A stretch of DNA of 64,000 nucleotides from Lepidostoma basale (Eukaryota; Arthropoda; Insecta; Trichoptera; Lepidostomatidae). The DNA is taken from assembly GCA_022606425.2 (NCBI GenBank), contig JAHDVF020000890.1, positions 834,501-898,500 on the forward strand. Direction: 5' to 3'. The position numbers and the translations under genes were made by a program. Below the pieces are notes generated by a model. It did no database searches. It saw nothing but the letters and a program-made list of their open reading frames with translations, and was not told where the DNA came from. This document shows positions 5-60,480 of this stretch, one piece after another; the stretch's first letter is position 1; every line of letters begins with the position of its first letter.

Positions 5-207
5 ACATTATTAAATATAATATGAATATACTTGTAATTATGTATTTAAACCACTTCATTATTGACAACAACCAACCGGTTTCGCTCCCGCTAGGATCTT
101 TTGTAACTCTGATGAAGCTCTGGCGAGAGCGAAACCGGTTAGTTGTTGTAAAAAATAAAGTAGTTTAAATACAAATTTACACGTATATTTATATTATATT
201 TATTACT
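5..207. repeat. Foldback element, family A
   Basis: Inverted repeat of about 200 bp. The left half (AT-rich, then AACCAACCGGTTTCGCT) is mirrored by the right half (GCGAAACCGGTTAGTTG, then the same AT-rich end reversed). It encodes no protein. The right arm carries the hammerhead-like motif at 105-144; the left arm has a decayed version on the minus strand. Related copies lie at 34620-34850 and 54483-54712. Confidence 0.75.
105..144 (+). ncRNA. Hammerhead-ribozyme-like motif, family A
   Basis: Stem I 5' strand AACT (105-108), core CTGATGA (109-115), one extra A (116), stem II GCTCT (117-121) / AGAGC (126-130) with loop GGCG, GAAA (131-134), minimal stem III C135-CG-G138, cleavage triplet GUU (138-140), stem I 3' strand AGTT (141-144) pairing fully with AACT. 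All conserved hammerhead core bases are present. The extra base after CUGAUGA departs from the canonical form. Self-cleavage is inferred. Confidence 0.6.
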
Positions 208-216
208 ATTATTGAA

Positions 217-727
217 AGCGAAAACGGCCGTTCACAATGGAGTTCTGGTCCCAACCCTAAGTTTAGAAGTGAACCATGGAACTGGCAGAAGAAGGATGAG
301 AACAGAACAAAAGCGGTAGAGATGAGGTCCCTATGACGTATGTGTGGTAGAACGATATACGACAGAATCTCAAAGGCTGGAAAGAAAGAAATGTAGCGCG
401 GAAGTAGGTTTTATGAACAAAGTTATGAAAGGATCACTGCGTTGGTTCGGACATATGGAGCGCATGGATGGAGAAAGAATGGCTAAGAAAGTATACGTTA
501 TTGATATAAATGGAGTACGGAGTCGAGGCAGACAGAAAAAAACATGGCATGACCAAATTAATAAAATTTTAAAGGTTGGTCATGTCAGAAGTCGGAAGAC
601 TATGACTCGCTGTATGAATGTGGAGGAATCTAGAGAGGTGTGCTAGTATAGAGTAGTGTGGCAGTACATTCTCTCTGCTTACACCTGCGGGGAAACGGTG
701 TGATGGTTTGTTGTTGTTGTTGTTGTA
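217..727 (+). mobile_element. RTE-like retrotransposon, 3' fragment, (TTG)n tail
   Basis: 5'-truncated, decayed copy of the C-terminal part of an RTE/CFDP2-type endonuclease-reverse transcriptase. The open stretch at 344-646 contains SLRWFGHMERMDGE, and the copy ends with the family 3' end (TGTGG..TTACACCTGCGGGGAAACGG) and a TTG repeat. A stop and a frameshift break the frame before 344. Confidence 0.8.
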
Positions 728-742
728 CTATATTCTATTAAT

Positions 743-880
743 TAAACAACAAATCATCACGCCGTTTCTCCAAAAGTTTAGGCGGAGATAATGGACTGTC
801 ACACTACTCTATCCTGACACATCTCTTTAGTTTCTCCACATTAATACTGCGAGTAATACACGCAGTCAATTTTTACGAAT
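743..880 (-). mobile_element. RTE-like retrotransposon, 3' end fragment
   Basis: Reverse-strand copy of the last ~120 bp of the same RTE family, starting at its CAACA tail and running through the CATCACGCCGTTTCTCC and CTATCCTGACAC blocks. It sits tail to tail with the fragment at 217-727, which differs enough to be an independent insertion. Confidence 0.7.
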
Positions 881-1047
881 TTTAACTTATTACAACTAAA
901 ATAATTTATCGTTATATCAATATAAGAATTCTGCGTTTAATTAAAACGTGTATATGGTATTTGATTGCAATGTTTCATAAAATAATAAACTTTTTATAAT
1001 AATTAACTCTATAGAATTCCATAATCATGCATTTTATTTATTAGATA

Positions 1048-1150
1048 ATTGATAATGCCTTAGAAAGACAAAATAATAAAACTTCTAGATAACAAACGTT
1101 TTCATTCGTAGATAATCCATTGTTTTGGCTATGATATTTCAACATTATTA
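1048..1150. repeat. Foldback family B, right-arm remnant
   Basis: Carries TTGATAATGCCTTAGAAAG, then AATAATAAAACTTCTAG and AACGTTTTCATTCG, the right arm of the most abundant foldback family. The rest of the element is missing. Confidence 0.6.
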
Positions 1151-1269
1151 TTGTTTATTTTTATAATTTTATGAATTGTCGAAACAGCTTATTCACCAAC
1201 TAATATTGGTATTATCATGTGTTACAAACAACAGTTGTTCCAAATTAAACAGTTAAGAAATGATTATGC

Positions 1270-1335
1270 ATTTTAACACTGTTTTTTCCACCTTTGAATG
1301 TAGAAAAACAGTGTTTTAATTCATAAAAAAAATAT
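1270..1335. repeat. Short hairpin, internally deleted family I element
   Basis: AACACTGTTTTT is mirrored by AAAAACAGTGTT around an ~18-base loop and is followed by TTAATTCATAAAAAAA. These are the outer ends of the family I elements near 5430-5795 and 20690, without the ribozyme-like centre. Confidence 0.5.
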
Positions 1336-1967
1336 TCACACTAAATATCACCATACTATGAAATTTATAAATGAATGCCATACCATGAGAGGGTCGCAGT
1401 ACATCCTTTACGAACTCCGAAAACATATTTTCATTCGATATTTAAAAAAATATATATATTTCGTAACAATGAGAACGCGTGACCCGGAAAATTTCGTAAA
1501 TACAACTTCTGATCTGTGATGCGGAGTTGTCAAGGATTCGGATAAATATTCAAAGCCGAAATTGAATTTGGAAACACTTTAGTTCGGCATTAAACATGAC
1601 TACTTAGTAAGAGAAATCTCAAAGGTTTTCCCATTGGACTGACCTGTATGCAAAATCGCCTTTGTAAGGTCTGTGAATTTAAAATGCAAATGCGAAGTCC
1701 AGGGCACGTACAGGCATCACGGGACTGTGGGGAGAAATATGAAAGTACTGGAATGGTACCCCATTTTGATGTTACATCAACTTAAATTTATCGTTCACAG
1801 TTGGGACGTTTCGCATTCGGCCGAAATGATAAATATTTGCGATGTAACCGAACGTGTGTTCTTTTTTTTATACTTACGATAACATAACGCGTACACGTTT
1901 CGTCTAGCACTTTTTTATACTTCAAAAAATGAATTTCATTCAAATGATATACAAATGGATATATATT
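1331..1967. other. No gene seen; single-copy AT-rich DNA
   Basis: No repeat match within the window and no convincing coding frame. The 69-codon open frame at 1673-1882 has no recognisable motif. Confidence 0.5.
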
Positions 1968-2250
1968 TTTAACTAACTAACCATCACGTCGTCTCCTCGA
2001 AAGGGTAGGCAGAAAGAATTGACTGCCATACTTTAACCGATGCGGCACTCCATTTTTCTCTTTTCGCCCCCGCGAGAGACGCGGTGTGATGGGTTGCGAA
2101 CCTCATCGCCACCAATAGGCATCTCCCGCGCATACTTTGATCGTCCAATATCCACAAAATAAATTGAAAACAAATAATATAAAATACAATGATATAAAAT
2201 AAAATAACAAAATAAAAATAATTTAACAAATAATGTTCTCTTAGATGGTG
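1968..2250 (-). mobile_element. SINE-like repeat with RTE-derived 3' end
   Basis: On the minus strand a ~170 bp unrelated body (with GGCGATGAGGTTCGCAACCC, whose GGTTCGCAACC resembles a Pol III B box) joins the RTE 3' end (CTTTCTGCCTACCC, GGAGACG.CGTGATGG) and a GTTA tail. The same junction recurs at 35212-35345 and 56105-56385, so it is a defined element, not a chance fusion. Confidence 0.65.
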
Positions 2251-2349
2251 CACATGTTGTCAGACTTTTGTGTTTATTTAATTTATATTCCACGTTGTTG
2301 TTCAAATTGTCATTGGAACAGATGAAAAATATGTTTTTTTAATTCATAA

Positions 2350-2460
2350 AATATGAATCTCTCGCTGTTTGGTCTGGTAAATTCACGTGACAATAAAAAT
2401 GCCGAAAGACTAGCTATTAATCAATAGCTAAAATGTTGTGTACAGAGTAATTAGGCTAAA
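2350..2460 (+). mobile_element. tRNA-derived SINE, 3' part only
   Basis: Contains TTTGGTCTGG..AATTCACGTGACAATAAAAATG, the 3' body of the SINE seen complete at 63110-63367. The tRNA-like head is absent. A second copy starts 13 bases downstream. Confidence 0.65.
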
Positions 2461-2472
2461 CAAATTTACGAA

Positions 2473-2645
2473 CTTCGTGGCAGAGGGGCATACCGAAGGT
2501 CCCGGGTTCGATTCCCGACGATGGCAGTGTGATTGTCACAAGTATTTGGTCTGGTATAGAATTCACGTGACTATAAATAAAATGGCGATAGATTAGCTAC
2601 CTATCACATGTCATGAAAATCAATAAAATAGTTGAAAATAACAAA
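2473..2645 (+). mobile_element. tRNA-derived SINE
   Basis: Head CTTCGTGGCAGAGGGGCATA..GGTCCCGGGTTCGATTCCC is tRNA-like with a good B box (GGTTCGATTCC) and a degraded A box. The body has GAATTCACGTGAC and ATGGCGATAGATTAGC. No intact (AAT)n tail remains. Confidence 0.75.
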
Positions 2646-2914
2646 TTGTATACAGTAATTGGGTTCAAACGATCTGTTGTTTAAAAATAGTAATAACCTG
2701 CTGTATTGAAAAATATGGAAAGCAACCAAAAACTATACTATTAAAGGCCCAAGTGGTATCTTATAAACTAGGATTGAAACTTTAAAAGGCGAATCACTAT
2801 CTTTTCACTTATCACGTTTTATTACAATGACAAAATCATCTATTGGGTAATCTAGATGAGAGATACATCATTTAACACTTGCACAAGAGTAATATAAATA
2901 AAATAAAATTTATT

Positions 2915-3092
2915 GGAAAACGTGGCTCGATCAAATGAATCGAATATTAAATGTCGCCCACGTAAGGAGTCGGAGAAATCGATGTGCCTGCATGGCACGA
3001 TGTAAGAATGCTGAGGAAGCGAGGGAAGTATGTCAGAAAAGAGGCAGTCCATTCTTTCTGCCTACTCCTTTGGGAAAACCTTACTAAGTTAG
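2915..3092 (+). mobile_element. RTE-like retrotransposon, 3' fragment
   Basis: About 180 bp covering the TWLDQMN..RSRRNRCACMAR region and the final AYSFGKT segment. The tail is reduced to GTTAG. Both frame and 5' end are broken. Confidence 0.7.
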
Positions 3093-3104
3093 TATAAAAT
3101 TAAA

Positions 3105-3345: not shown

Positions 3346-3419
3346 TGGCGCCTTACGACATTTTGTAGAGGCTTATTTTCCAGAAAAACATACCCCATCG
3401 TAGCCCTACTACCCTTTTG

Positions 3420-4757: not shown

Positions 4758-4814
4758 ATCTTTAATTTAATAATTTTAAAACATTTATATATATTTTTAT
4801 GAATTAAAACACTG

Positions 4815-5423: not shown

Positions 5424-5427
5424 TAAA

Positions 5428-5795
5428 ACACTGTTTTTTTCAAATTTGAGTTTATTTTTCTCGACGTGTTTCGAAGGCTTACAACCTCATCGGAAAAACG
5501 ATATATCGCGTCTTTGCAAGAATAACGTGACATCGAAAATCAAATCCGCCGTGTTCAACTTTATTTTCTACAAAAACATGGTATTGTTAAAGTGAAAAAC
5601 AGAGAATTTATGAGGGAAAGAGACAACACATTTTTCAATTTTTCGAGATAACACGTTATTCTTGCAAAGAGGCGATGTATCATTCTCCCGATTATGAAGG
5701 TGTAAGCCTTCGAAACATGTCGAGAAAAAAAAACTCAAAAGTGAAAAAAAAAACAGTATTATATTTATAAAAAAATCGTCATTATGGAATTCCAC
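5428..5795. repeat. Foldback element, family I
   Basis: Ends ACACTGTTTTTTTC..GAGTTTATTTTTCTCGACG (left) and CGAGAAAAAAAAACTC..AACAGTATTATA (right) are mirrored, as is an inner pair around TTTGCAAGAATAACGTGA. Both arms carry the ribozyme-like motif reading outward (minus 5455-5497, plus 5683-5726). It lies directly against the tail of the preceding RTE copy. Confidence 0.7.
5683..5726 (+). ncRNA. Hammerhead-like motif, family I (decayed core)
   Basis: Stem I TTCTC (5683-5687) pairs with GAGAA (5722-5726). Core CCGATTA (5688-5694, consensus CUGANGA), extra T, stem II GAAGG / CCTTC (5696-5711), GAAAC, AT, GTC (5719-5721). Stems are intact but core positions 4 and 8 are changed, so activity is unlikely in this copy. 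Confidence 0.4.
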
Positions 5796-5860
5796 AGCGT
5801 TTACTCCTTAAGTTTATCTAAAAATAATATATTTTGTTTTTACATCGCTTTTTTTTTTAC

Positions 5861-6968: not shown

Positions 6969-7310
6969 ATTTATTGTATCTTGAACAATGATGTAAAACT
7001 CAATATTTAATTATTAATTAATACGAATGAAAACGACAGTTTTCTAGTAGTTTTATTATATTTTATGGGAATGACATGTTTCGCCCTTCTAAGGCATTAT
7101 CAAATTTTTGTTAATTACCATATTCTGCTCCATTTACTTGCGTATATAAATAGTAACGAGCTGAAATTTCGTCACATTTGATAATGCCTTAGAAAGCCGA
7201 AACATGTCATCCCCATAAAATATAATAAAACTTCTAGAAAAATGACGTTTTCATTCGTATTAATTATTTAATATGGAGTTTTTATATCCATTGTTCAAGA
7301 AACAATAAAT
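6969..7310. repeat. Foldback element, family B, near full length
   Basis: Mirrored ends TTTATTGTATCTTGAACAAT and GTTCAAGAAACAATAAA, then ACGAATGAAAACG / CGTTTTCATTCGT, CTAGTAGTTTTATTATATTT, and a centre with CATGTTTCGCCCTTCTAAGG and TGATAATGCCTTAGAAAGCC. The right arm (7177-7210) has TTGATAA, extra T, a GCCTT-type stem II, GAAAC, AT, GTC. Confidence 0.8.
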
Positions 7311-7317
7311 TAAATTA

Positions 7318-9072: not shown

Positions 9073-9157
9073 GTATTATTTACAATTTTGTCTCTAACTT
9101 TTTATTGGTAATATTATGTGATGCTGTTGATATGTTTAAATAAATAAAATATCTGTA

Positions 9158-9390
9158 ATTAATACGAATGAAAACGTCAGTTTTCTAGAAGTTTTATTAT
9201 ATTTTATGCGAATGACATGTTTCGCCCTTCTTAGGCATTATCAAATGTCAAATATCAAATGACACTTGATAATTCTTTAGAAGGGCGAAACATGTCTTTC
9301 CCATAAAATATAATAAAACTTTTAGAAATCATTCGTATTAATTATTTAATATGGAGTTTTACATCATTAGTCAAGAAACAATAAATTAAA
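9158..9390. repeat. Foldback element, family B
   Basis: AATACGAATGAAAACGTCAG, CTAGAAGTTTTATTATATTT, CATGTTTCGCCCTTCTTAGG, mirrored right arm GAAGGGCGAAACATGTC and the CAAGAAACAATAAA end. Confidence 0.75.
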
Positions 9391-10131
9391 TATCTGTATG
9401 TTACCCTTAATAGCAATACCTGATCGAATACACCAGTGCAGCATAATTTCGCTCTGGGCTACTGTGTCCACTACTGAACTGCCCGCATTAGTGGCAATTG
9501 GACAATTGGCGGTCACTGGAGCAGGAGTGCACGACGGGACAAAGGAAGAGATAATATCCTGCTCCCAGGCAGATTACAATCTATACAGCCGGCCCGTCAT
9601 ACGTGTGTGTGCTCGTGATTAACCGCAAAGGTGACGACTAAGCTCGTTCATTAAGTTATGCCAACACGAACACAGTGATTTAACACTTTGTGTGCGGGAA
9701 ACGTTAAAACAATATATTATGACAAGATCTTCTTCTTCTTCACTTTTGATAGACTCAGGAGTCTGTTATTTCAGGCGGGTCCTCTTGAGACCCTGAACTC
9801 CAGCTTTTTTGACGTCTTTTTCCATTCGCATTACTTAAAAATATAATGTATGCATTTTTTAACAATCTTCTTTGAGAGTAAAATAAAATACTTTCCAACA
9901 ATTGATTCTGGTATCAAAGCCACGTTACCTGTGTAATAATGAATGATTTTGAATATTTGGATGTTATTACTAATTATTAATGTACCTGGAACAATTACCT
10001 TATTATTCATTCGCAATAATACATAATATACATATACATGTGAGAAGCCGTGGCATACTAATGAGATGTATGTATTGTAGTATGTTAAATTGAATACTCT
10101 TGGACTAACATTGGCGCGTAATTCTCTAGAG
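9391..10131. other. No gene seen
   Basis: The open frame at 9398-9622 has no recognisable motif. A TCTTCTTCTTC-led stretch near 9728-9830 may be an old RT tail on the minus strand but is too decayed to support. Confidence 0.35.
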
Positions 10132-13789: not shown

Positions 13790-14308
13790 AGTAGTCTGGT
13801 AACTTAAGCCGATTTTCATGTCTTTTTTGGAAGGCGTTTTTTTGTAGGAAAATAAAAATTAATCGTTTTGTAAATTTAGGATGTTTCTATTTACATATTA
13901 AAGATACAAAAATATTTTTTTTTGAAAAAAATTAATAGTTTATTATTATTATTATTATTGTTATTATTATTAATCGAAGTTGGTACCTCGAAAAAAAAGT
14001 GGGTGGCCCGGGTGATTTTGGCTTTTGATGTTATCTGAAATCAAAAATTCTTAAAAATTCTTAATCCAAAGACATGTCATTCTCGTCGGAACTACCGAGA
14101 CATTTTTCACCCCTAAATTTTTATTTTACAACCCCTTCTTTGCTGACATTTTTTTTTTCAAAGTCCGCCATTTTGTTATTTATCCATGAAATTTAACTTC
14201 TGTAGGTAAAAAAACATCCAAAATTTCCAAAACGATTCATTTTTATTTTCCTACAAAAAAACGCCCTCCAAAAAAGACATGAAAATCGGCTTAAGTTACC
14301 AGACTACT
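13790..14308. mobile_element. TIR MITE, probable TTAA target
   Basis: Long terminal inverted repeats (~90 bp): AGTAGTCTGGTAACTTAAGC and CGATTTTCATGTC at the left mirrored at the right (GACATGAAAATCG..CCAGACTACT). TTAA lies at both outer edges (13786-13789 and, one base further out, 14310-14313). No transposase frame. A Kolobok- or piggyBac-type non-autonomous element is likely. Confidence 0.65.
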
Positions 14309-23421: not shown

Positions 23422-23646
23422 ATAATTAACACGAATGAAAACGTCAGCTTTCTAGAAGTTTAATTATATTTTATGGGAATGAAATGTTTCGCCCTTCTAA
23501 GGCATTATCAAATATCAAACATTTGATAATGGCTTAAAAGGGCGAAACATGTCATTCACTTGAAATATAATAAAACTTCTAGAAAACTGATTCGTATTAA
23601 TTATTTAATATGGAGTTTTACATCATTGTTTAAGAAACAATAAATC
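23422..23646. repeat. Foldback element, family B
   Basis: ACACGAATGAAAACGTCAGC, AATGTTTCGCCCTTCTAAGG, TTGATAATGGCTTAAAAGGG, CGAAACATGTCATTCACTTG and the CAATAAA end; near full length apart from the left terminal block. Confidence 0.75.
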
Positions 23647-24574: not shown

Positions 24575-24745
24575 ACTAAGTTTACAATAGTGTTACCAGT
24601 CTGTCGATGCCAGCGAGCCTGGCGAAACCGGTCGCTGTCTAAATAAAGACAAAAGTGGAAGTAGTTAAAAAACATCGTTTTATTTAATTATTATTTAAAA
24701 TGAACTTCCATCAAGAGATTTCAGTAAACTCATTTGATTATCATA
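24575..24745 (+). repeat. Foldback family E, right arm
   Basis: Arm from GTTACCAGTCTGTCGATG to CATTTGATTATC. The same ~150 bp occurs inverted at 25573-25725, with single-copy DNA between them. Confidence 0.65.
24597..24637 (+). ncRNA. Hammerhead-like motif, family E
   Basis: Stem I CAGT (24597-24600) / GCTG (24634-24637), core CTGTCGA (24601-24607; A6 and U7 differ from CUGAUGA), extra T, stem II GCCAG / CTGGC with loop CGAGC, GAAA, C-CG-G, GTC (24631-24633). The copy at 36571 has CAGT / ACTA, changing the first U-G pair to U-A. Confidence 0.45.
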
Positions 24746-25572
24746 AAAAACATCGTTTTATTTAATTATTATTTTATTTTCATTATTTCCATGAACTTCT
24801 AAAAAAAAATCTTTTGACAATATTATTTTGTGTAATAAATTGTAGATTTTTCATTTATAACTTATTTCTACGTCAACTATTTAAATATTGATAATACGTA
24901 CTGTATAAAATACTTCTTGTCGTAGATTTCTGTCAAAATTGTTTTGTTCTTTGATTTTCAAATTTGGAAGCTGTAGGTTAAGTACAGCTCTGCTCCGGCT
25001 ACAACGTATTTTTTTGCTGTTAAAGTTTCGTAACTTGTGTTGTGTTGTCTTATTCCGGAGCCTTATTGTTTGTGGGCAGGCGTGCCTCCAATTCAGTTAA
25101 GTAATTTTAGAGCGTGTTTTGGAGAAGTGCCAATGAATCAATCTCTCCTCCTCTCCTCCTCTTTTCCTCTTCTCGCCGCTCCCGCCGATACAAGATGGCG
25201 GAGCGCGCGCTTCATGCATTTTACAGGCGTCCTCCAAGTCGGAATGGCCGCGCGCCCGGGTGCCGTCGGGGAGCCAGACGTATTACATTTTACTTGGTAA
25301 CTATTCAATTATGAATGGATTTCTGTTCACCGTCTGCTAGACTTGCCACCTGCCGTGTTCCGTCCAGCACATTCTGTCTTCTACACACTATGCTATTGTT
25401 ATCCTTAACTCATTGTCTGCGGAAAGAGTATTATTACCCGTTTACCGAACTGGTGGTGGCCCGCACGAAGGGTATAAATACCTCTTTCGAGGACTCAGTA
25501 TGAACTATTAAAAGTACACTTTTATAGTCATTTTATTGTCATTTTTAAGTATACATAAACCTAAATGTTATA
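24746..25572. other. Single-copy segment with GC-rich centre
   Basis: AT-rich left part, then a GC- and CpG-rich block (25060-25270, with CCGATACAAGATGGCGGAGC). Two overlapping frames of 66-87 codons cross it but neither has a recognisable domain. Could be promoter-proximal or 5' UTR DNA. No splice or promoter signal can be proved. Confidence 0.3.
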
Positions 25573-25765
25573 AGATAATCAAATGATTTTACTGAAATCT
25601 CTTGATGGAAGTTCATTTTAAATAATAATTAAGTAAAACGATGTTTTTTAACTACTTCCACTTTTGTCTTTATTTAGACAGCGACCGGTTTCGCCAGACT
25701 CGCTGGCATCGACAGACTGGTGTCTGACCAGTCTGTCGATGCCAGCTTTGTCTAAAATAAAGACA
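25573..25765. repeat. Foldback family E, left arm and broken right arm
   Basis: Left arm complete (GATAATCAAATGATTTTACT to CGACAGACTGG); right arm restarts at CCAGTCTGTCGATGCCAGC and is deleted through stem II. The ribozyme-like motif lies on the minus strand at 25678-25719. Confidence 0.65.
25678..25719 (-). ncRNA. Hammerhead-like motif, family E
   Basis: Minus strand: CAGT, CTGTCGA, extra T, GCCAG-CGAGT-CTGGC, GAAAC, CG, GTC, GCTG. It differs from the 24597 copy only in the loop, so all pairs are preserved. Confidence 0.45.
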
Positions 25766-26037: not shown

Positions 26038-26039
26038 TT

Positions 26040-26400
26040 ATTAAATAATTAATATGAATGAAAACGTCGGTCTTCTAGGAGTTTAATTATATTTTAGATG
26101 GAATGACACGTTTCGCCATTCTAAGGCATTATCAAATGACATTTGATAATTATGTAATAATTATTTAATAATTAATATGAAGGAAAACGTCTGTCTTCTA
26201 GGAGTTTTATTATATTCTAGATGGAATGACATTTTTCGCCATTCTAAGGCATTATCAAATAACATTTGATAATGTCTTAAAAGGGCGAAACATGTCATTC
26301 CATCTTAAGTATAATTAAACTCCTAGAAGACAGACGTTTTCATTCATATGAATAATTTTATATGGAGTTTTACATCATTGTTCAAGAAACAATAAATATG
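26040..26400. repeat. Foldback family B, two copies in tandem
   Basis: First copy 26040-26155 is cut after TTGATAATTATG; second 26158-26400 is full length, with AACGTCTGTCTTCTAGGAG / CTCCTAGAAGACAGACGTT arms, TTGATAATGTCTTAAAAGGG, GAAAC, AT, GTC and the terminal CAAGAAACAATAAATA. Confidence 0.75.
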
Positions 26401-26504: not shown

Positions 26505-26610
26505 TGTTTCTTGAACAATGATGTAAAACTCCATATCAAATAATCAATACGAATGAAAACGTCAGTTTTCTAGAGGTTTTCTAGAAAACTGACGTTTCCA
26601 TTCGTATTAA
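26505..26610. repeat. Foldback family B, centre-less hairpin
   Basis: ATACGAATGAAAACGTCAGT and TTCTAGAGG run straight into TTTTCTAGAAAACTGACG and the mirrored end. The ribozyme-like centre is deleted, leaving a simple hairpin. Confidence 0.65.
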
Positions 26611-26762
26611 TTATCACAGTTGTTTTTTATTTTACGCGACAGCTGTTTCGTCAACCTATGTTGACATCATCAGGTGATGATGATAACACCTGATGATGTC
26701 AACATAGGTTGACGAAACAGCTGTCTCGTAAAATAAAATAAAATTGTGATACATAAAACAAA
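26611..26762. repeat. Foldback element, family D
   Basis: ATCACAGTTG..TTTTATTTTACG and CGTAAAATAAAA..TTGTGAT ends, with two outward hammerhead-like arms (minus 26638-26676, plus 26687-26727) around GATGATGATAA. Inserted against the B hairpin upstream. Other D copies: 29080, 36290, 53005. Confidence 0.75.
26687..26727 (+). ncRNA. Hammerhead-like motif, family D
   Basis: Perfect core CTGATGA (26690-26696), extra T, six-pair stem II GTCAAC-ATAG-GTTGAC (26698-26713), GAAAC (26714-26718), AGCT, GTC (26723-26725). Stem III is ACAGCUGU, self-complementary, so it could pair between two molecules. Stem I is weak in this family (only 2 of 3 bases near the core can pair), the main argument against activity. 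Confidence 0.45.
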
Positions 26763-27483: not shown

Positions 27484-27785
27484 AATCCAAAAATTGAGCT
27501 ACGCACTGCTACCTCGTCCGGCATATTCTCTAGATTTACCCCTTTGGGACTATTTTTTTTCCAAATCTGAAGAAATGGCTGGGCGGTAAGAGATTTGGGT
27601 CGAATGAAGAGGTCATCACTGAAACAAACGCCTATTTTTAGGGCCTTGAGAAAACCAATTTTTTGGAAAAGAAAAAAATTGGAAAAACGCTGGACAAATA
27701 GTATCGAGCTAAAAGGAGACTATGTTGAGAAATAAAACGCTTATTTGCCGAAAAATTCATCCTATATTCAAAAACTTTTGACAAT
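27484..27785 (+). mobile_element. mariner transposase, C-terminal pseudogene fragment
   Basis: Translation with one stop and small shifts gives LPRPAYSLDLPLWDYFFF, then LKKWLGGKRFGSNEEVITE and AKRRLC, matching the mariner transposase C-terminus around the third catalytic aspartate of the DD34D triad (the D of WDYF). The N-terminal DNA-binding part, first two aspartates and recognisable TIRs are missing. Not functional. Confidence 0.8.
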
Positions 27786-27789: not shown

Positions 27790-28335
27790 CGACTTATTAA
27801 ATACTTAAGGAAGGGTTAAGTATTATAAACCCAGTGAATATTCTGTACTCTCTGCGTATACTTGGGTAATACGTACATTTCATATACCGGCACCCAATAA
27901 TTTGTGAGCTTATAGGGAGAAATCAAACAGTCGCGACTGATTCAACACGGGAAGGCGCCGCCCTGAGCATTCGGTATTTACCCCGAGATGTCTGACGGCT
28001 CTCTACAAACAGGCACGTGGATGTGCCGAGGTGCGCCGCACGGAGGCTGTGAACTAACGCGTTACGATCTCAATATGACTGTTTTAATTATTTCCACCGT
28101 AGTGCGCTCATAGAGCCCTTCTAATTTATGCGAATAAATAGAGTATGTGTATTTACATAGTATATTATGTGTATATACGTCTTAATTCATCTTACATGGC
28201 ATGTCCAAAGTTTCGCAACCTTTTACGGACCACCGCCCACTTTACAAGAAAATAATCCGACTACCCTTAAAGTTACACTTAATATTAAAATACACAATAT
28301 TTTTTGGTATGAAGCCATCACTTTGTGGAGTTATC
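27790..28335. other. No gene seen
   Basis: Single-copy with a GC-richer middle (27930-28070). No coding signal. Confidence 0.4.
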
Positions 28336-28339
28336 AATA

Positions 28340-28416
28340 TTTAAATTGAATACACATTAATTTGTTAAAACCAGGTTAAAAGTGGTTTTAACAAATTAAT
28401 GTGTATTCAATTTAAA
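28340..28416. repeat. Perfect palindrome, 34 bp arms
   Basis: TTTAAATTGAATACACATTA..AAAACCA (28340-28373) is mirrored exactly at 28383-28416 around a 9-base loop. Not a member of the named foldback families. Confidence 0.85.
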
Positions 28417-28505
28417 TACACAATATTTATACATAATCTCTTTCTATTAATAATTACAAAATATCAAATGTACCTGAAATGTTAATTTTTTGTTTATTAC
28501 TGTTA

Positions 28506-29046
28506 AAATTTAATAAAACTAACTAACTAACTAACTATCACGCCATTTCGCCGGAGGGGTAGGCAGAGAGGATGGATCGACACAATGCCCTGTCCTGGCA
28601 TACCTCTCGGGCTTCCTCTACATTCATACATCGTACCATGCACGCACGTCGATTATTCCGACTTCGAATGTGGCCGCCTTTTAGTAATTGATTAATTTGG
28701 TAATGCCATGTTTTCCTCGGTCGCCCTTGGCTTCTTTTCCCACTCACGCTGCTTGTGTACAACTTTTTAAACATTCTACTCTCATCCATTCCTTCCATAT
28801 GTCCAAACCATCTCAGGGATCCTTTTTTAATTTTATTCATGATGCAGTCATCTGCCTTACATTTCTTTCTTATTTCATCGTTCGGTATTCTATCATACAA
28901 CGTTTTCCCGCACATTCTTCTTAGTGATCTCATTTCTACGGCTTTTATCCTGCTTTCATCCTTCTTTTGCCAGCTCCAAGTTTCACTTCCATACATGAGG
29001 GTTGGCACTAGAACTCCACTGTGTACTGTCATCTTTGCTTCTGTGG
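28506..29046 (-). mobile_element. RTE-like retrotransposon, 3' fragment, (GTTA)n tail
   Basis: Intact frame of 164 codons (28538-29032): SGVLVPTLMYGSETWSW, RSLRRMCGKTLYDRI, IKKGSLRWFGHMEGM, GRPRKTWHYQINQL, SILSAYPSGEM. Same subfamily as the large copy at 39478-41262 and the copy at 43150. Confidence 0.85.
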
Positions 29047-29079
29047 AAATTTAAAATATTATAATATCACAATTTCTTT

Positions 29080-29250
29080 TCATTTACGGAGTCTCGCAAC
29101 AGCTGTTTCGCCAACCGATGTTGGCATCATCAGGTGTTACAATAAACATACAGTTAGTTTATCAATACAGTTTATTGTAACACCTGATGATGCCGACATC
29201 GGTTAGCGAAACAACTGTCGCGACACTCAGTAAATAAAAAGAAATTGTGG
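29080..29250. repeat. Foldback element, family D, two hammerhead-like arms
   Basis: Left arm (minus, core TCATCAG at 29127-29133) has perfect stem II GCCAAC-ATCG-GTTGGC, differing from the 26687 copy (GTCAAC..GTTGAC) by a compensated pair (C-G for U-A). Right arm (plus, CTGATGA 29184-29190) has GCCGAC..GTTAGC with two mispairs, then GAAAC, AACT, GTC. Confidence 0.7.
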
Positions 29251-29334
29251 TATTATAAAAGTGTTTTAAATTTTGACAGTAATAATGTTGAAGTATCATA
29301 GTGTTTCGGCCAAAAAAATGGACTATTATTTTTT

Positions 29335-31409: not shown

Positions 31410-31738
31410 ACAGGTAGGTAGAATACAAAAACAACAAAAAAACAAACGTGAAATTTTAAAATTACAATATAAGCAATATACAAAAACATAAAAAAAAACA
31501 CGATATAATTAAAAAAATTAAGACCAATGAAGTAATTAGAAACAATAAGAAAAACAACACATTATTTAAGAGATATATACAGGTAAAATACAAAAACAAC
31601 AAAAAAAAATGTGAAATTTTTAAATTCCAATATAAGCAATATACAAAAACATAAAAAAACACGATATAATTAAAAAAAATTAAGACCAATGAAGTAATTA
31701 GAAACAATAAGAAGAACAACACATTATTTAAGAGATTG
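31410..31738. repeat. 165 bp tandem duplication in a retrotransposon 3' UTR
   Basis: The block GTA.AATACAAAAACAACAAA to ACAACACATTATTTAAGAG occurs twice with a 165-base offset. It lies directly downstream (minus strand) of the Jockey-like fragment. Confidence 0.8.
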
Positions 31739-33480: not shown

Positions 33481-33600
33481 TTTTATGTACTTTGTATTTA
33501 TATACAACACTAACTTATTTAAAAAAAAATGAAATATCAGACATGTTTCGGACAACCCGGTCCTCCCTCAGTGATATTATAAAGATATTTAAAATATAAA
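33480..33600. repeat. Foldback family F, left arm
   Basis: ACTTTGTATTTATATACAAC, AACTTATTTAAAAAAAAAT, then the hammerhead-like arm on the minus strand. The right arm is missing or unrecognisable. Confidence 0.6.
33533..33578 (-). ncRNA. Hammerhead-like motif, family F, seven-pair stem I
   Basis: Minus strand: stem I AATATCA / TGATATT, seven Watson-Crick pairs flanking the motif exactly; core CTGAGGG then A; stem II GGAC / GTCC; GAAAC, AT, GTC. Position 9 has changed, so this copy is probably dead, but it is the strongest single case for stem I. Confidence 0.5.
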
Positions 33601-35345: not shown

Positions 35346-35439
35346 GCTAGGGCATTCTCAAACATGTTTGAGAATGTCCTCACAAGGTGAAACAAAATTG
35401 TTACTAGTGTTTATATATTTTTATATATAAATTAAAAAT

Positions 35440-35660
35440 CAATATAATAATTAAACCTAACGACGTTTTTTAAAAACTACTCCACAGACCGATAGTGAAT
35501 GGTTTCCCCAGACTTGCTTGTATCGACAGACTGGTGATACTATTATAAATAGTGTCACCAGTCTGTCAATATCAGCGAGCCTGGCGAAACCGGTCAAGAC
35601 CGAAATAATGACAAAAGTGGACGTAGTTCTTAAAAAAGATGATTATATTTGAATAGTTCA
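35440..35660. repeat. Foldback element, family E, both arms
   Basis: Left arm ATTTAGTTTTT-like with ACTACTCCACAGACCGATAG and CCCCAGACTTGCTTGTATCG; right arm CACCAGTCTGTCAATATCAG, CGAGCCTGGCGAAACCGGTC. Stem II pairing is poor in both arms; an old copy. Confidence 0.6.
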
Positions 35661-35699
35661 TTGTTTTGGCAATCGCGTTTTTCATTACGCATTTTAAAA

Positions 35700-36010
35700 T
35701 AATAATAATGAGAAGTGTATATTTGGCGCCCAATGCAACCGGCACTGGGCGATATGTTTAATTATGTTTATAAATAGCCGTCAATCAATGTTGGGCCGCG
35801 CAAGTTTCCATCACACAAGTTCCAATATGGCTGCTCCGGCTGGCAGTTTGATGTCCACGTGCTAATTATTCCCCTCACCTAGTATACCGATGTATCCAGG
35901 CCCCAGCCGCCCGCCCGCCTGGATACATTAGTCCTCCTCTATTTATCTTCTCGTTCCCTGCAGCCTACATTAATGGCTTTTCAACTTTACTTTTTATCCT
36001 GCTGCCAGAA
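35700..36010. other. GC-richer single-copy island
   Basis: CCAATGCAACCGGCACTGGG, TTCCAATATGGCTGCTCCGG, CAGCCGCCCGCCCGCCTGG. No frame and no repeat match. Candidate conserved non-coding DNA. Confidence 0.3.
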
Positions 36011-36078
36011 ATTTCAGTTTAGCATAACGCTCTTAAGCCCTTCAAATATAACAACTTTTTAAAGATAATCAAATGATT

Positions 36079-36197
36079 AATACGAATGAAAACGTCAGTT
36101 TTCTAGAAGTTGTATAAAACTTCTATAAAACTGACGTTTTCATTTGTATTAATTATTTAATATGGAGTTTTACATCATTGTTCAAGAAACAATAAAT
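36079..36197. repeat. Foldback family B, short hairpin with target duplication
   Basis: AATACGAATGAAAACGTCAG..CTAGAAGTTG and AACTTCTATAAAACTGACG plus the end CAAGAAACAATAA. Flanked by AATCAAATGATT on both sides (36067-36078 and 36198-36209; 14 bases if AT is included), inside an E element, so insertion and TSD are clear. Confidence 0.75.
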
Positions 36198-36289
36198 AAT
36201 CAAATGATTTTACTGAAATTTCTTGATGGAAATTCAATTTAAATAATACTCGTAAACAAATAAAACGATTTACTATTAAAATTTATAAC

Positions 36290-36440
36290 ACTGTTATGAA
36301 ATTTATAACACTGTTATGAAATCACAATTTATATTATTCACTTTTTGAGTGTCGTGACAGCTGTTTCGCCAACATCGGTTGTCGAAACAGCTGTCGCGGC
36401 ACTCAAAAAGTTAATAATTACAGTGTGATACGTTTAAACA
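36290..36440. repeat. Foldback family D, minimal
   Basis: CTTTTTGAGTGTCGTGACAG and CTGTTTCGCCAAC fold onto GTTGTCGAAACAG and CTGTCGCGGCACTCAAAAAG. CTGATGA and most of stem II are deleted. The preceding AATTTATAACACTGTTATGA is itself duplicated. Confidence 0.65.
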
Positions 36441-36469
36441 GTTAATAATGTTGAAGTATTCAAATAAAA

Positions 36470-36660
36470 TTATGTTTTTTAAGAACTACGTTCACTTTTG
36501 TCATTATTTCTTGAGCGGTTTCACGAGACTGATATCAATAGACTGGTGACACTATCAATAACAATATCACCAGTCTGTCCATACAGCAAGTCTGGGGAAA
36601 CCGGTCACTATCGTATGTATGGAGTAGTTTAAAAAAACATCGTTATGTTTAATTATTATA
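36470..36660. repeat. Foldback element, family E
   Basis: Left GAACTACGTTCACTTTTGTC and TTGAGCGGTTTCACGAGACT; right ATCACCAGTCTGTCCATACA and ACCGGTCACTATCG. The outer left part of this element is interrupted by the B and D copies upstream (36079-36440). Confidence 0.65.
36571..36609 (+). ncRNA. Hammerhead-like motif, family E
   Basis: Stem I AGT / ACT next to the core (plus C-A mismatch), core CTGTCCA (36575-36581), extra T, stem II ACAG / TCTG-type with drift, GGAAAC, CG, GTC. It supplies the U-A replacement for the U-G pair seen at 24597. Confidence 0.35.
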
Positions 36661-36729
36661 TTATAACATAATGGTTTTATATTCAACTTGTCTAATTATA
36701 ATATAATATTTATATATATAATTTAGAAA

Positions 36730-54482: not shown

Positions 54483-54712
54483 CATTATAAAATATAATAT
54501 CAATACATTTTAAAATTGTTTTTACACCACTTTATTTTTTAACAACCAACCGGCTTCGCTGCCGCGAATGAAAAATAAAAACTTTTATTTTTTGTGTGTC
54601 TTTTGTAACTCTGACGAAGCTCTGGCGAGGGCGAAACTGGTTGGTTGTTAAAAAATAAAGTTTTGCAAAAACAAATATAAATATATATTTATATTATATT
54701 TAAAAATATATT
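54483..54712. repeat. Foldback element, family A
   Basis: Left CACCACTTTATTTTTTAAC and AACCAACCGGCTTCGCTGCC; right GGTTGGTTGTTAAAAAATAA. The centre gained a palindrome (AAAAATAAAAACTTTTATTT). Confidence 0.75.
54607..54646 (+). ncRNA. Hammerhead-like motif, family A
   Basis: Stem I AACT (54607-54610) / GGTT (54643-54646); core CTGACGA (54611-54617, a valid CUGANGA); extra A; stem II GCTCT / AGGGC (54619-54632) with loop GGCG; GAAAC; TG; GTT (54640-54642). Compared with 105-144, three pairing positions changed yet all stay paired through G-U. Confidence 0.55.
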
Positions 54713-55400: not shown

Positions 55401-55509
55401 AAGCCTTCAAAATACTTCTAAGTTCTTCACTGATTTCAGTTTTTTGCCTCTCTATAATATTTATTGATGAAATTAGGAAACACGAATGATTCATAATTGA
55501 ATAATTTAA

Positions 55510-55710
55510 AATGCTTTGTTTCACAACACCTAACTAAAATTTAAACAAAAACACGTTTCGGGACACAGAATCCCTTCATCATTGCAAATATTGTCAAAAT
55601 CGTGACATATACGATTACGATGTTGTCAATATTTACACTGATGAAAGACTTCCGTGTCCCGAAACATGTTTGTGTTTAAATTATAATAAAGTGTTATGAT
55701 ACAAAGTTTT
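55510..55710. repeat. Foldback element, family G, two hammerhead-like arms
   Basis: Ends CTTTGTTTCACAACAC and GTGTTATGATACAAAG; arms ATTTAAACAAAAACACG and CATGTTTGTGTTTAAAT. The minus arm (55553-55590) has ATGATGA, extra A, a clean stem II GGGA..TCCC, GAAAC, GT, GTT. Confidence 0.7.
55634..55674 (+). ncRNA. Hammerhead-like motif, family G
   Basis: Stem I ACA / TGT next to the core (U-G beyond); perfect core CTGATGA (55638-55644); stem II reduced to GAC / GTC with flanking mispairs; GAAAC (55661-55665), AT, GTT (55668-55670). The partner minus arm keeps the better stem II. Confidence 0.4.
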
Positions 55711-56104
55711 TTTAAATTATTCAATTACGAATCCACAGCACAAAGTGATGGTGAATAAAGAAGAAATTCTAATGATCCATTTCGTTGTTATTTTTTTGTA
55801 AAGGGGAATTTTTATGTGAATACAAGTGTGTAACGTTTGTAATTGCCCGAATTTTAATAGTGTTTAATTAACACCTACGCACTTTTTTTGCAGAATAACA
55901 AATTGTATGTCAGTTTCTACTAGGTTAAGATCACAACGCGTTTCTGGGCCGGAGTTGGTGCGAGGGCCCTTATTTACCATATACGGTACTCGAAGCTTAA
56001 CATAAATAATTGGTTTAATATGATTTGAATAATATTTTTAATAGTTATGAATTTCAAATATACCACACTTAAAACATATTAACATATTTTAAAAAATGTT
56101 TATC
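55711..56104. other. No gene seen
   Basis: Single-copy with a GC-richer bit at 55930-55990. Confidence 0.4.
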
Positions 56105-56809: not shown

Positions 56810-56930
56810 CTCGCCATATTTGATAATGCCTAAGGGCGAAACATGCCATTACATATGAAATTTAATAAAACTCCTAGAAGACAGTCGTGTTCATTCATAT
56901 TAATTATTTAATATGGAGTTTTAAAACATT
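56810..56930. repeat. Foldback family B, right half
   Basis: TTTGATAATGCCTAAGGGCG, AAACATGCCATTACATATG, ACTCCTAGAAGACAGTCG, TATGGAGTTTTA. Confidence 0.65.
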
Positions 56931-56992
56931 ATTTCTCTTTTTCTTTTTTTATACACTTTGTTTATACAAAACTTACATTAAAAAAATTAAAA

Positions 56993-57036
56993 TTACGTAG
57001 ACATGTTTCGGACAACCAGTCCTTCTTCAGTGATAC
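56993..57036 (-). ncRNA. Hammerhead-like motif, family F
   Basis: Minus: ATCA, core CTGAAGA (a valid CUGANGA; revcomp of 57024-57030), extra A, stem II GGAC-TGGTT-GTCC, GAAAC, AT, GTC, then TACG. Core and stem II are fully intact. Stem I next to the core pairs at only one position. A second copy on plus at 57472-57502 has GAAGC for GAAAC. Confidence 0.45.
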
Positions 57037-57305
57037 ATATTATAAAGATACATATTTAAAATATTATAAAATTGTTTATTGATCTGACAGATGTTATAAA
57101 GATTTATTTTGGAACGTTTATGTTTTTTTTTTATAACAAATATGATTAAATTTAAAATAATAATTTAAAGTTATTTAAATTATTATTTTAAATGAAATCA
57201 TAATATTTGCTATAATAAAAGCATAAACGTTCCAAAATAAATCTTTATAACATCTGACAGATCATATAATTTTTTTATAATATTTAAATATGTATCTTTA
57301 TAATA

Positions 57306-57452
57306 AGTCGGAATAATCGACGTGCGTGCATGGTACAATGTATGAATGTAGAGGAAGCCCGAGAGGTATGTCAGGACAGAGCATTGTGGCGATACATCCT
57401 CTCTGCCTACCCCTCCGGGGAAATGGCGTGATGGTTAGTTAGTTTGTTAGTT
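57306..57452 (+). mobile_element. RTE-like 3' fragment nested in a foldback, 12 bp TSD
   Basis: 147 bp from AGTCGGAATAATCGACG to GGCGTGATGGTTAGTTAG. Exact target duplication ATCTTTATAATA at 57294-57305 and 57453-57464. Shows that these short tails are genuine 5'-truncated insertions. Confidence 0.85.
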
Positions 57453-57659
57453 ATCTTTATAATATGTATCACTGAAGAAGGACTGGTTGTCCGAAGCATG
57501 TCTATGTAATTTAAATTTTTTTAATGTAAGTGTTGTATAAACAAAGTGTATAAAAAAGAAAAAGAGAAATAAAGCAATTACAACACAAAGTATGGCGTAT
57601 ATAGGAGAAATTTTAAAACATTGTTCAAGAAACAAAAAATCATAAATGTTTAGTAAACA

Positions 57660-57900
57660 TAGTAGTAACATCTGCTCCTCATCTCCAGACCGCCCCTGGC
57701 CGCATGTACGCGCGGTGTATGTACGTGACCTCGGTGATTTAATAGCCCTTAATTTTTCACTTACGCCATGTCCTGGTCCATCCGATCTCTGGCGGGAGGC
57801 GGGCAGTAAGTGGGGTGCTCGCGGTGCCACTAATAAGGCGGCACGACGATCCAATTCGTAATGACGCTTCGGTTTATGTAGATTCATCCACGCTTGTTTA
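57660..57900. other. GC-rich single-copy island
   Basis: CTCCAGACCGCCCCTGGCCG, GGGAGGCGGGCAGTAAGTGG. Open on both strands for 70-180 codons but without a recognisable domain, and the minus frame runs into foldback sequence. Possibly conserved non-coding or exon-derived. Confidence 0.3.
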
Positions 57901-58040
57901 TCGTGAGACAAAATGGCGAATCTCGTCTGCTTGACACTCAATTTTTTATTGGATAATCGTGTATTTGTATACGTATTGAGATGTGTTTTTTTTTGCATAG
58001 CTGATAATGTATAGATGGCTCATTATGTGATTGTCAAACA

Positions 58041-58313
58041 ACATATCGCACCGTGAATGTAAAACCTACGTAAGTGCAAATATACTTTTTGGAGATATGG
58101 GAGTTTAAAGACTTCATATTGCTTGGAAAACATTTTTTTTTTTTTAAATAAACCAATGATTTTCGGTTTATAGGTATATTACTATAAACCGAAAATCATT
58201 GGTTTTTAAAAAAAAAAAACAGTTTTTCCAAGCAATATGAAATCTTTAAACTCCCATATCCCCAAACTGTATATTTGCACTTACGTCGGTTTTACACTCA
58301 CGGTGCGATATGT
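58041..58313. repeat. Long palindrome, about 130 bp arms
   Basis: ACATATCGCACCGTGA, GTAAGTGCAAATATAC, GGGAGTTTAAAGA, ATTGCTTGGAAAA and CCAATGATTTTCGGTTTATA are all mirrored around GGTATATTAC. Few mismatches. No hammerhead-like core. Confidence 0.85.
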
Positions 58314-58611
58314 GTTTCTTCTATATTAGCCTTTGCTTTATTTTGTAGATTCATATTTGAATTAAACATAATTATATTTTTTATTACAACACTTTATTTC
58401 ACTTAACACAGACATGTTACGGTTTGCAAGTAACCTTTATCAATGTACATAATTTTGACAATCGGATAAAACAGAATGGTCACTTATGTACTAAAAGGGG
58501 GTGGAGTTCTGTACAAAGGTGGAGGTAGTATAATTAGGATTGAGGAGAGGGGAGATGTAACGGGAATATTTCGAACATGTTAATTTAATTTAAATTATAT
58601 TGGCCATAACT
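58314..58611. other. No gene seen
   Basis: Has AACACTTTATTTCACTTAACACAGACATGTTACGGTTTGC at 58386-58425 in two parts resembling a further foldback arm. Not enough to assign. Confidence 0.3.
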
Positions 58612-58850
58612 TTGTGTTGCGGATGTTTAGTGTTTCTTTTTTATATACCTCGTATAAAACACATATTAAAGAAATAAAAATTAAAAACCTAACATGTCTC
58701 GGACATACAGGCCCTTGATCAGTGATATTATATAAATATTAAAAATATTTATATTATATCACTGATGAAGGGCTTGTGTGCCCGAAACATGTTTGGTTTT
58801 TATTTTTCTTAATATAAAAAAGAAACATTAAATTTAACTGGTTGTTTATA
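58612..58850. repeat. Foldback element, family F
   Basis: Left GTTTCTTTTTTATATACCTC, AAAGAAATAAAAATTAAAAAC; right TTTTTATTTTTCTTAATATA, AAAAAGAAACATTAAA. Minus arm (58692-58735) decayed (CTGATCA, GAGAC); plus arm well preserved. Confidence 0.75.
58758..58797 (+). ncRNA. Hammerhead-like motif, family F, best preserved
   Basis: Stem I ATCA (58758-58761) / TGGT (58794-58797), four pairs with one U-G. Perfect core CTGATGA (58762-58768), extra A, stem II GGGC (58770-58773) / GCCC (58780-58783), GAAA (58784-58787), C-AT-G, GUU (58791-58793). Versus GGAC / GTCC at 56993, the third stem II pair changes from A-U to G-C on both sides. Confidence 0.6.
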
Positions 58851-59265
58851 GTGTTATATTTTCACTATTTTTGATGACTTTTTTAATTTCTAAGATTTCT
58901 AAATTATTTAATCTTAGGTTTTCGTTATTAATATTAAAAATTTAACTTTTTAGGCTACTTGTAACCGAAAGATCTGTGTGTTAGTAAAATAAAGTGTTGT
59001 AATACAAGGTGTAATTATATTCATTCAAACATATAAGTTCATCATTTTTCATTTTTATTGTTTCTTGAACTCTTTTTTTAAATAATTGATTCGAAAGAAA
59101 AATGTCGTTCTCGAAGTTGATGGGAATAAAATATTTTGCCTTGCTAAGGTATTACCGAATATCATTACTGTTAAATTTGAAACCCTTTTATCATATCACT
59201 ATTTATTTATTGTTTTTATTTCATTTTTTATTAATAGAAAAACAAAAAAATACTTATAATAATAC
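58851..59265. other. No gene seen
   Basis: AT-rich, with B-like scraps (ATTGTTTCTTGAAC, TTGCCTTGCTAAGG) at 59058-59150. Confidence 0.35.
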
Positions 59266-59425
59266 TAGCTAACTAACTAACTAACCATCACCGTCTCTCC
59301 AGAGGGGTAGGCAGAAAGAATGGACTGCCACACTTTTCTTTCCTGGCATAATTCTCTCGCTTCCTCTATATTCATACATCGTGTCATGCACGCACATAGA
59401 TTTCTCCGATTCCTCACGTAAACAA
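59266..59425 (-). mobile_element. RTE-like 3' fragment, (GTTA)n tail
   Basis: Minus: EESEKSMCVHDTM-like, then REL-region to SILSAYPSG and (TAAC)4 tail. Confidence 0.75.
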
Positions 59426-60244
59426 TGTAAAAATTCAAAAGAATTCGATGTGTCTGGAAGTTCCCATTATTCTAGTAAATTTGTGATGATACAGGAATTC
59501 TGAAACCAAACCACAAACACAAACATGTCCTTCCACCTTTGAAATTAATTCTGTTTCTAAATTTCGACATGGTAGTAATTCCATAATCACCAAGTATTTA
59601 AGGAGCCAATGCCGTACGCTACGTCTACTTAGACCCAGGAACCAATCAGATAGCTTTCTATAACTAAAACCATTCTATAACCGGAGGTTTTACTCACACT
59701 ATTGAAAATATTCTCCCTGAAGTGAATAAACTATCCATGATTTTTATATATTCAAACTGGGGTAACCCGTTCTTCGATCCATGTACTGATCCATGGTAAT
59801 GTTCGAATAATTCTATGTTATTTAATGTGCACAATTTTCATTAACAATGTCTTATCTCGTACAATAACGTAATAAACGTTGTGAATACGATATGGTTACC
59901 CATCTCCCACTGTTGCGTAATGTAATTTTGAGCAAAGAGTGATCTTGAATGTATGTGGAGGTCAATAGACCTGTTACATTAGTTAGCTTCTTGAACTCAT
60001 CAAACACGTCTTGACCTACACGCTAATATACGTTTAATACGACAATTGTCGAACTATAACTCTGGAAATATTCGTAAGAAAACACAAGAAGTACGTACGG
60101 ATGCTACGAAAATACATTGTTAGATACGATATATTTTTTAATATGTAGAATTCCACATTTATATATCTCGACATTAAAAAAATATTTAAATTTTCGTATG
60201 AAGCGTTCACTTTGTCGTTAGACATTTAATTTTTTTATTATTAT
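59426..60244. other. No gene seen; long single-copy stretch
   Basis: AT-rich with no recognisable frame or repeat. Confidence 0.4.
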
Positions 60245-60480
60245 TTGTATTAAAAATAAAAAAAATAAAGACACTACTTTGTTTTTCACCACTATGCGGT
60301 TATTTTAATTGCCGACTAGTTTCGCTTGTACCCAAGCTTCCTCAGGGCTTCGTAAATTTATTAAACGTATTACGAAGCCCAGAGGAAGCTTGGATACAAG
60401 CGAAACTAGTCGGCAATTAAAATAACCGCATAGTGGTGAAAAAAAAGTAAGTGATTTTATTTTATTTTAAATACAAATAA
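60245..60480. repeat. Foldback element, family H, two hammerhead-like arms
   Basis: CACTATGCGGTTATTTTAAT and CCGACTAGTTTCGCTTG mirrored by CAAGCGAAACTAGTCGG and ATTAAAATAACCGCATAGTG, nearly perfect over ~60 bases, so fairly young. Confidence 0.8.
60311..60348 (-). ncRNA. Hammerhead-like motif, family H
   Basis: Minus: stem I GCC (revcomp of 60346-60348) / GGC (of 60311-60313); core CTGAGGA (of 60339-60345), a valid CUGANGA; extra A; stem II GCTTG-GGTA-CAAGC; GAAAC; TA; GTC. Complete core. Stem I has only three pairs but all are G-C. The plus arm (~60374-60413) has CAGAGGA as core. Confidence 0.55.

Follow-up and report, generated by a model that had tools for sequence, protein, structure and literature searches.

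Foldback elements of Lepidostoma basale share a predicted hammerhead architecture and probably derive from Penelope-like elements

In rotifer Penelope-like elements (PLEs), pseudo-long terminal repeats (pLTRs) can lie head to head, with an optional tail of 31 bp on one of them and target duplications of 8-10 bp, and unrelated DNA has been captured between such pLTRs (PMC3846280; papers cited by accession are used for the parts of their text that were available). Minimal PLE hammerhead ribozymes have also been described (PMC6155905). In vitro work on PAc, the Poseidon PLE of Anolis carolinensis, showed that its protein can cut and extend each of the two DNA strands, and that the hammerhead cut depends on this protein; the cut lies at +26, and an internal start of reverse transcription at +111 to +118 (PMC11167929). 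Here, we analysed foldback (inverted-repeat) elements of several families, named A, B, D, E, F, F2, G, H and J, in a 64-kb stretch of the Lepidostoma basale genome (contig JAHDVF020000890.1, our C1528, positions 834501-898500), called the window throughout. Small PLE hammerhead variants with a minimal stem III reportedly cleave as dimers, a finding ascribed to Lunse et al. 2017 and to Cervera and De la Pena 2014.

The window foldbacks had the same anatomy as Pen2a of Adineta vaga and other inverted-pLTR PLEs (PMC3846280), with pLTRs in direct or inverted order and an optional tail. They differed in having no open reading frame (ORF), in the presence of several families within 64 kb and in three target duplications of 11-12 bp; in the available main text of that paper, the word hammerhead does not occur. 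Compared with PAc (PMC11167929), the likenesses were a hammerhead near the ORF start, an internal start of reverse transcription downstream of it, AT-rich targets and the extension of both strands. The differences were a hammerhead upstream of the apparent ORF start (in the coding lineages PLE-3 and PLE-4, described below), an extra base before stem II and, in one lineage, U3-A8 in the core. Type I hammerheads of phages (IMG/VR) had the same core as those of the window, and the extra base and U3-A8 each occurred there. They differed in their longer stem III and unrelated hosts, and U3-A8 combined with the extra base was accompanied by good stems in 0 of 60 cases in the viral contigs.

The window families shared one hammerhead architecture. 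A hairpin of at least 4 bp followed by GAAAC occurred at 66 sites, including the families at the coordinates given in an earlier reading of the bare sequence (the initial annotation). A stricter descriptor combined a CUGANGA box, 0-2 further bases and a stem II of at least 4 bp with GAAAC, 1-5 bases and GU[ACU]. Its matches numbered 8 when the box had to be perfect, 13 when one box mismatch was tolerated and 18 when two were; the means in 60 dinucleotide shuffles were 0, 0.05 and 0.45, respectively. Seven families (A, B, D, E, F, G and J) contributed to the 18 matches, copies within one family not being independent. In their common order, stem I is followed by the CUGANGA box and, after one extra base, by stem II; then come GAAAC, the self-complementary linker, GUH and the second side of stem I. 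The gap between box and stem II was exactly one base in all 18 matches, though the descriptor allowed 0, 1 or 2. GUH was likewise present in 18/18, but this was demanded by the descriptor and lends no independent support. The type I core (CUGANGA and GAAA, with a free N7) was present in the eight perfect boxes, and N7 took all four bases. Three stems surrounded the core and the GUH site, with a minimal stem III and with family D as an exception for stem I. Many copies were decayed. The arms of a foldback bear the motif on opposite strands, so a single transcript has one sense copy. The initial annotation had proposed many unrelated foldback families with one hammerhead architecture. The shared architecture holds, with 13 matches against 0.05 in the shuffles; the families are not all unrelated, as F, F2 and H align together.

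Pairing of stem I was not part of the descriptor. It was scored on one representative per family (n = 7), picked by hand as the better-paired copy for E and F and the worst-paired copy for D. Over the first four positions, 24 of 28 were paired. All 5,040 re-pairings averaged 12.1, and none but the true pairing attained 24. Over five positions, 26 of 35 were paired, a value reached in ~3 of the 5,040 re-pairings. Stem II was paired at 28 of 28 positions (mean of 16.6 on re-pairing), in line with the earlier statement that it differs per family yet always pairs; stem II itself belonged to the search criteria. The linker was exactly self-complementary in 16 of the 18 matches, reading ACCGGU, ACAUGU, ACUAGU or ACAGCUGU together with the flanking AC and GU. 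In F2 and in one A copy, a G-U pair was required for this. At the GAAAC-NN-GUH sites of the window, 34 of 45 linkers were self-complementary, against 28% by composition, many of these sites being copies of one family. Such a linker fits the needs of a dimeric hammerhead, since it allows an extended stem III to be shared between two copies.

Coding elements with the same motif were found in the own genome (769 Mb, 1,572 contigs; all counts from it are lower bounds). A GIY-YIG search gave at least 62 matches (150 of 541 candidates scored), and a frame of 758 residues carried both RVT_1 and GIY-YIG. At one locus (L270), the frame with both domains sits between two hammerheads whose core is identical to that of family B; reverse transcriptase and GIY-YIG in one frame, the mark of PLEs, were thus found in elements flanked by family B hammerheads. 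With the 758-residue protein as query, at least 59 matches were obtained, including lineages at 38-46% identity. Four PLE lineages with a mutual identity of 38-55% were distinguished, namely PLE-1 (family B), PLE-2, PLE-3 and PLE-4. The pLTR of each carried a hammerhead with the extra base. It is located upstream of the reading frame for reverse transcriptase and GIY-YIG, as observed in PLE-3 and PLE-4, and a further one occurs downstream of the frame. Of 30 PLE-protein loci, 29 had a hammerhead within the fetched flanks by fixed family patterns, the exception being L281; the same patterns detected one at 7 of 7 fetched loci and in 6 of 6 downstream stretches, some of the loci in these counts overlapping. 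A further hammerhead family near GIY-YIG genes (L253 and L257; CTGAAGA T GGAGG tat CCTCC/CCTCT GAAAC AT GTC) was absent from the 18 window matches.

Three window elements matched the pLTRs of these coding PLEs. The first was the head-to-head family B pair B1 (24595-25721; centre of 787 nt; hammerheads at 24601-24633 on the plus and 25683-25715 on the minus strand). Its left arm was 98.8-99.4% identical to PLE-1 pLTRs over 162-165 nt, and 92.6% identical to another over 188 nt. The second, a short foldback without hammerhead at 28302-28418, had a start-codon tail on one side and was identical to PLE-3 loci over 72/72 and 42/42 bases. The third, the F2 foldback (55488-55733; hammerhead at 55550-55582, minus strand), was related to the PLE-2 pLTR, with 77-81% identity to four loci (L283, L284, L308 and L311). 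The initial annotation had left the choice between PLEs, retrozymes and satellites. These matches favour PLEs, and the other two sources were not supported.

A covariance model was trained on phage hammerheads (36 distinct sequences, 14 of them with the extra base and 22 without, taken from 117 that a pattern search found in IMG/VR). Its seven best matches in the window were all copies of these families, at 58756, 33534, 103, 56997, 41557, 17870 and 41702 (E values of 3.1e-5, 8.7e-5, 0.0012, 0.0016, 0.09, 0.36 and 0.74; the first four <0.01). The eighth, at 27561 (E 0.81), lay outside them. Significance was confined to families A, F and H. The best match fell in the family F foldback at 58677-58807 (hammerhead at 58762-58793, plus strand; E 3.1e-05), followed by a family F hammerhead with a perfect stem I, ATCA/TGAT, at 33540-33571 on the minus strand (E 8.7e-05). 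The third was the core at 109-140 on the plus strand (AACT/CTGATGA/A/GCTCT..AGAGC/GAAAC/CG/GTT/AGTT; E 0.0012) of the family A foldback at 9-206, which has the full hammerhead in its right arm and a left arm that begins inside stem II. The fourth lay in the family H foldback at 56931-57610, whose insertion site is an E arm (hammerhead at 57000-57030, minus strand; E 0.0016). The hammerhead core proposed initially is, as a predicted fold, well supported by sequence, by covariation and, for A, F and H only, by the phage-trained model.

Several results weigh against a PLE-derived, self-cleaving hammerhead in all families. The Rfam hammerhead models, which the initial annotation had named as a check, gave no match anywhere in the window at a threshold as permissive as E 10, and the window copies did not reach the Rfam gathering score. 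When 81 bases were searched alone, Rfam HH9 scored 14.1 bits (cut-off 52), with the extra A displayed as an insertion; a second stretch of 56 bases searched alone gave no Rfam hammerhead. The phage-trained model gave E values of at least 2, or nothing, for B, D, E, J and G (except the 17.9-kb copy of G). The core departs from the consensus in families B (CUGUCGA) and E (UUGAUAA), and stem I of family D has only 0-1 bp. Families A, D, G and J had no long match to a coding element (A was ~70% identical to a PLE-3 locus over 78 nt). The sole links of family E to PLE-4 were the core variant and a reading-frame start in the tail, read by eye as MEFYIIVQETIN in family E against MEFYQTKTSTIN in PLE-4. 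The motif was found at 19 of 30 GIY-YIG loci, and the 11 loci without it may be other genes or distant copies. Clear target duplications were seen at only 3 of the 27 places examined, with approximate boundaries. For PAc, the available text of PMC11167929 reports that reads with an end at the cleavage site were absent and that insertion is independent of cleavage. Finally, no PLE coding sequence was detectable in the window by comparison with the own-genome PLE loci. The window copies are therefore non-autonomous, as initially annotated, but they likely derive from a coding element.

With these points weighed, we regard it as very probable that B, F2 and the 28.3-kb copy match pLTRs of the genome's own PLEs, that this origin is likely for the remaining families too, and that many arms carry a hammerhead fold for which self-cleavage after GUH is predicted. 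These hammerhead sequences escape the current Rfam models. Weak Rfam microRNA matches on long hairpins were all below cut-off and were taken as hairpin artefacts.

Two features seem to be new: the extra base, present in 18/18 matches, and the replacement of C3-G8 by U3-A8 in family E and PLE-4. A literature text search for U3-A8 gave only PMC11167929, the comparison being made without Lunse et al. 2017 and Cervera and De la Pena 2014. Regarding the extra base, in phage hits to a pattern whose stem II anchor has three bases, stems I and III were good in 103 of 137 cases without it and, with one extra base, in 35 of 121 (33 T, 2 A), both among the matches listed. The extra base does not disqualify a hammerhead, because phage hammerheads with good stems also carry one. 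Regarding the core, family E boxes read UUGAUAA, and PLE-4 boxes read UUGAAAA 28 times and UUGAGAA once (the loci overlap, and 26 identical occurrences are not independent). A UUGAGAA box was also present in a decayed PLE-4-like pLTR piece of the window at 35366-35456 (plus strand; 74-75% identity to L310/L312). C3 and G8 are thus both altered, and N7 is variable.

In the active hammerhead core, C3 pairs with G8; the pair was probed in PAc by a C3G/G8C double change that partly restores cleavage (PMC11167929). A natural U3-A8 replacement, if true, would reveal what this pair must supply. In viral contigs, without the extra base, stems I and III were both good for 8 of 50 matches to the double variant U3-A8 (6 distinct), for 1 of 39 with U3 alone and for 0 of 37 with A8 alone. 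The difference between double and single changes was significant (Fisher p 0.003; 0.013 on distinct sequences), with the single-change controls scanned only without the extra base. One of the eight (L353) looks weak; stems I and III pair well in L315, L319, L339, L347 and L352, phage hammerheads whose core reads UUGAUAA (U3-A8). Exact-pattern scans of the viral contigs for the family D and E cores gave none. The viral sequences support the U3-A8 swap as natural, though not in the exact form found here, with the extra base.

PLE-4 reading frames on different contigs were 99.6-99.9% identical (identities are ungapped and meaningful only for pairs >99%). This may hint at recent activity of PLE-4, unless the contigs are haplotypes; activity of several families in one genome, as suggested initially, was not borne out. 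Four PLE-4 copies, two minus then two plus over ~12 kb, lie at both C308:2096145-2107985 and C502:3014-14849. This quartet on two contigs may reflect haplotypes or an assembly effect.

In the foldbacks, the 5' side of the hammerhead was oriented toward the centre and the 3' side outward. Family E arms ended in ...TATTAATT or ~43 nt beyond. Eight E elements had both ends readable by eye: six had one short and one long end, one had two long ends and one two short ends. The extra tail, often on one arm, holds an ATG. Short versus tailed outer ends on the two arms are expected from two initiation events. Target duplications were present at three insertions. Around family H in the E arm, the 12-bp TTTTAAAACATT was found at 56919-56930 and 57611-57622, and the right arm had an extra tail of ~38 nt. 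Around a short E foldback without hammerhead inside family B (36079-36197), the 12-bp AATCAAATGATT was found at 36067-36078 and 36198-36209; it occurs once in the B1 copy, the empty site. Around the E foldback at 9158-9386, which has a short left and a long right end, the 11-bp AAATATCTGTA was found at 9147-9157 and 9388-9398. Possible AT-rich duplications at the J copy and the 41.5-kb F copy were excluded from the count. Unpaired centres measured only 3-25 nt in nine family foldbacks, and were longer in one E element (70 nt), in H (401) and in B (~790). Centres of 3-25 nt suggest either one RNA copied twice or snap-back.

We propose that, at insertion, both broken DNA strands would prime reverse transcription. 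Priming at internal sites just downstream of the hammerhead would place the RNA 3' sides outward and let the 5' sides meet mid-element; two-sided priming would yield the observed foldback geometry. The near-coincident inner ends suggest that a single RNA molecule may be copied twice. In the full-element RNA, two hammerheads with a minimal self-complementary stem III would pair and cut as a dimer, probably aided by the element's protein. The foldbacks themselves are probably dead end-products, because the single sense hammerhead of their transcript would pair with the antisense arm. The joint proposal, that the PLE-4 and family E hammerhead works with a U3-A8 core that also evolved in phages, and that foldbacks are one RNA copied twice, from each broken DNA end, is put forward tentatively and seems to us a little more doubtful than not. 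Tailed head-to-head mini-copies with readable ends record PLE insertion, a step still unsolved, and two-sided priming and snap-back become testable from genome data.

Snap-back, in which the head-to-head arms arise by hairpin self-priming of one cDNA or antisense transcript rather than by priming from both target ends, is a serious possibility that we would nevertheless not quite favour. Self-priming on an antisense template is preferred for rotifer PLEs, in which palindromes sit at the junction (PMC3846280), and the nine short centres agree with it. The arms of the same E element were also more alike on average (0.177, 12 pairs) than those of different elements (0.224, 194 pairs), but in several E elements the partner arm was not the closest (e15 was closer than only 1 of 19). 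Snap-back also fits poorly with the different outer ends in six of the eight E elements, with the long centres, and with the extension of both DNA strands by the PLE protein in vitro (PMC11167929).

Alternatively, the hammerhead fold may be retained because the element's protein uses it as a signal for binding or priming, with self-cleavage weak or irrelevant. We consider this unlikely. It agrees with the anole PLE, whose hammerhead is uncut without protein and whose cleavage-dead mutants still insert (PMC11167929). On the other hand, N7 varies next to core positions that are fixed in most families, and C3 and G8 change together in family E and PLE-4.

Animal retrozymes, small retroelements with tandem units, circular RNAs and canonical type I hammerheads (described for metazoans in PMC7229834), share with the window the type I hammerheads within short AT-rich repeats. 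They were rejected as highly improbable: here stem III is minimal, the units are head to head, and the same kind of motif flanks reverse transcriptase and GIY-YIG genes. A tandem scan (19 rows) gave one E dimer with a 123-nt period and no array, and hence no tandem repeats of 170-400 nt. Foldback DNA transposons or miniature inverted-repeat transposable elements with chance hammerhead-like hairpins would account for AT-rich inverted repeats in many copies, and were dismissed almost entirely given the shuffle and permutation tests, the matches of the phage-trained model, the 11-12 bp duplications, the motif on the inner side of the arms and the pLTR identity.

The remaining foldbacks are as follows. 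A second family A foldback lies at 54484-54712 (hammerhead at 54611-54642, plus strand); in the own genome, family A arms gave at least 52 matches (40 of 1,398 candidates scored). A second, decayed family B pair at 35441-36662 is broken up by an E and a D foldback. Family D foldbacks are located at 26601-26762 (hammerheads at 26638-26673, minus, and 26690-26725, plus; linker region ACAGCUGU) and at 29029-29291 (hammerhead at 29098-29133, minus). In family E, the foldback at 6969-7310 has long, tailed outer ends on both arms and a hammerhead at 7073-7103 on the minus strand (box UUGAUAA). The one at 23423-23645 has a short left and a long right outer end, with no duplication found, and the element at 26039-26397 has two left arms in direct orientation and a single right arm, which is inverted. 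The family G foldback at 5434-5750 carries a hammerhead at 5688-5721 (plus strand; stem I TCTC/GAGA), and the family J foldback at 60234-60487 carries two, at 60314-60345 (minus) and 60380-60411 (plus), with the linker region ACUAGU.

The window also contains other repeats. A foldback of long interspersed nuclear element (LINE) 3' sequence ending in TTG repeats lies at 601-858, so inverted copies are not confined to PLE families. The closest named relatives of the window's LINE reverse transcriptase are in moths and butterflies (Phthorimaea, Plutella and Parnassius). A reverse transcriptase named Klebsiella pneumoniae (P0032) was 43% identical to this animal LINE; the label is probably a contamination or misnaming. 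Two inverted repeats matched none of the PLE loci. One, at 58041-58313, is a 90% palindrome whose arms measure 111 nt; the other, at 13790-14308, has 97-nt arms that are 96% complementary and a centre of 325 nt. An AT-rich unit of 162 bp forms a two-copy tandem repeat at 31416-31736.

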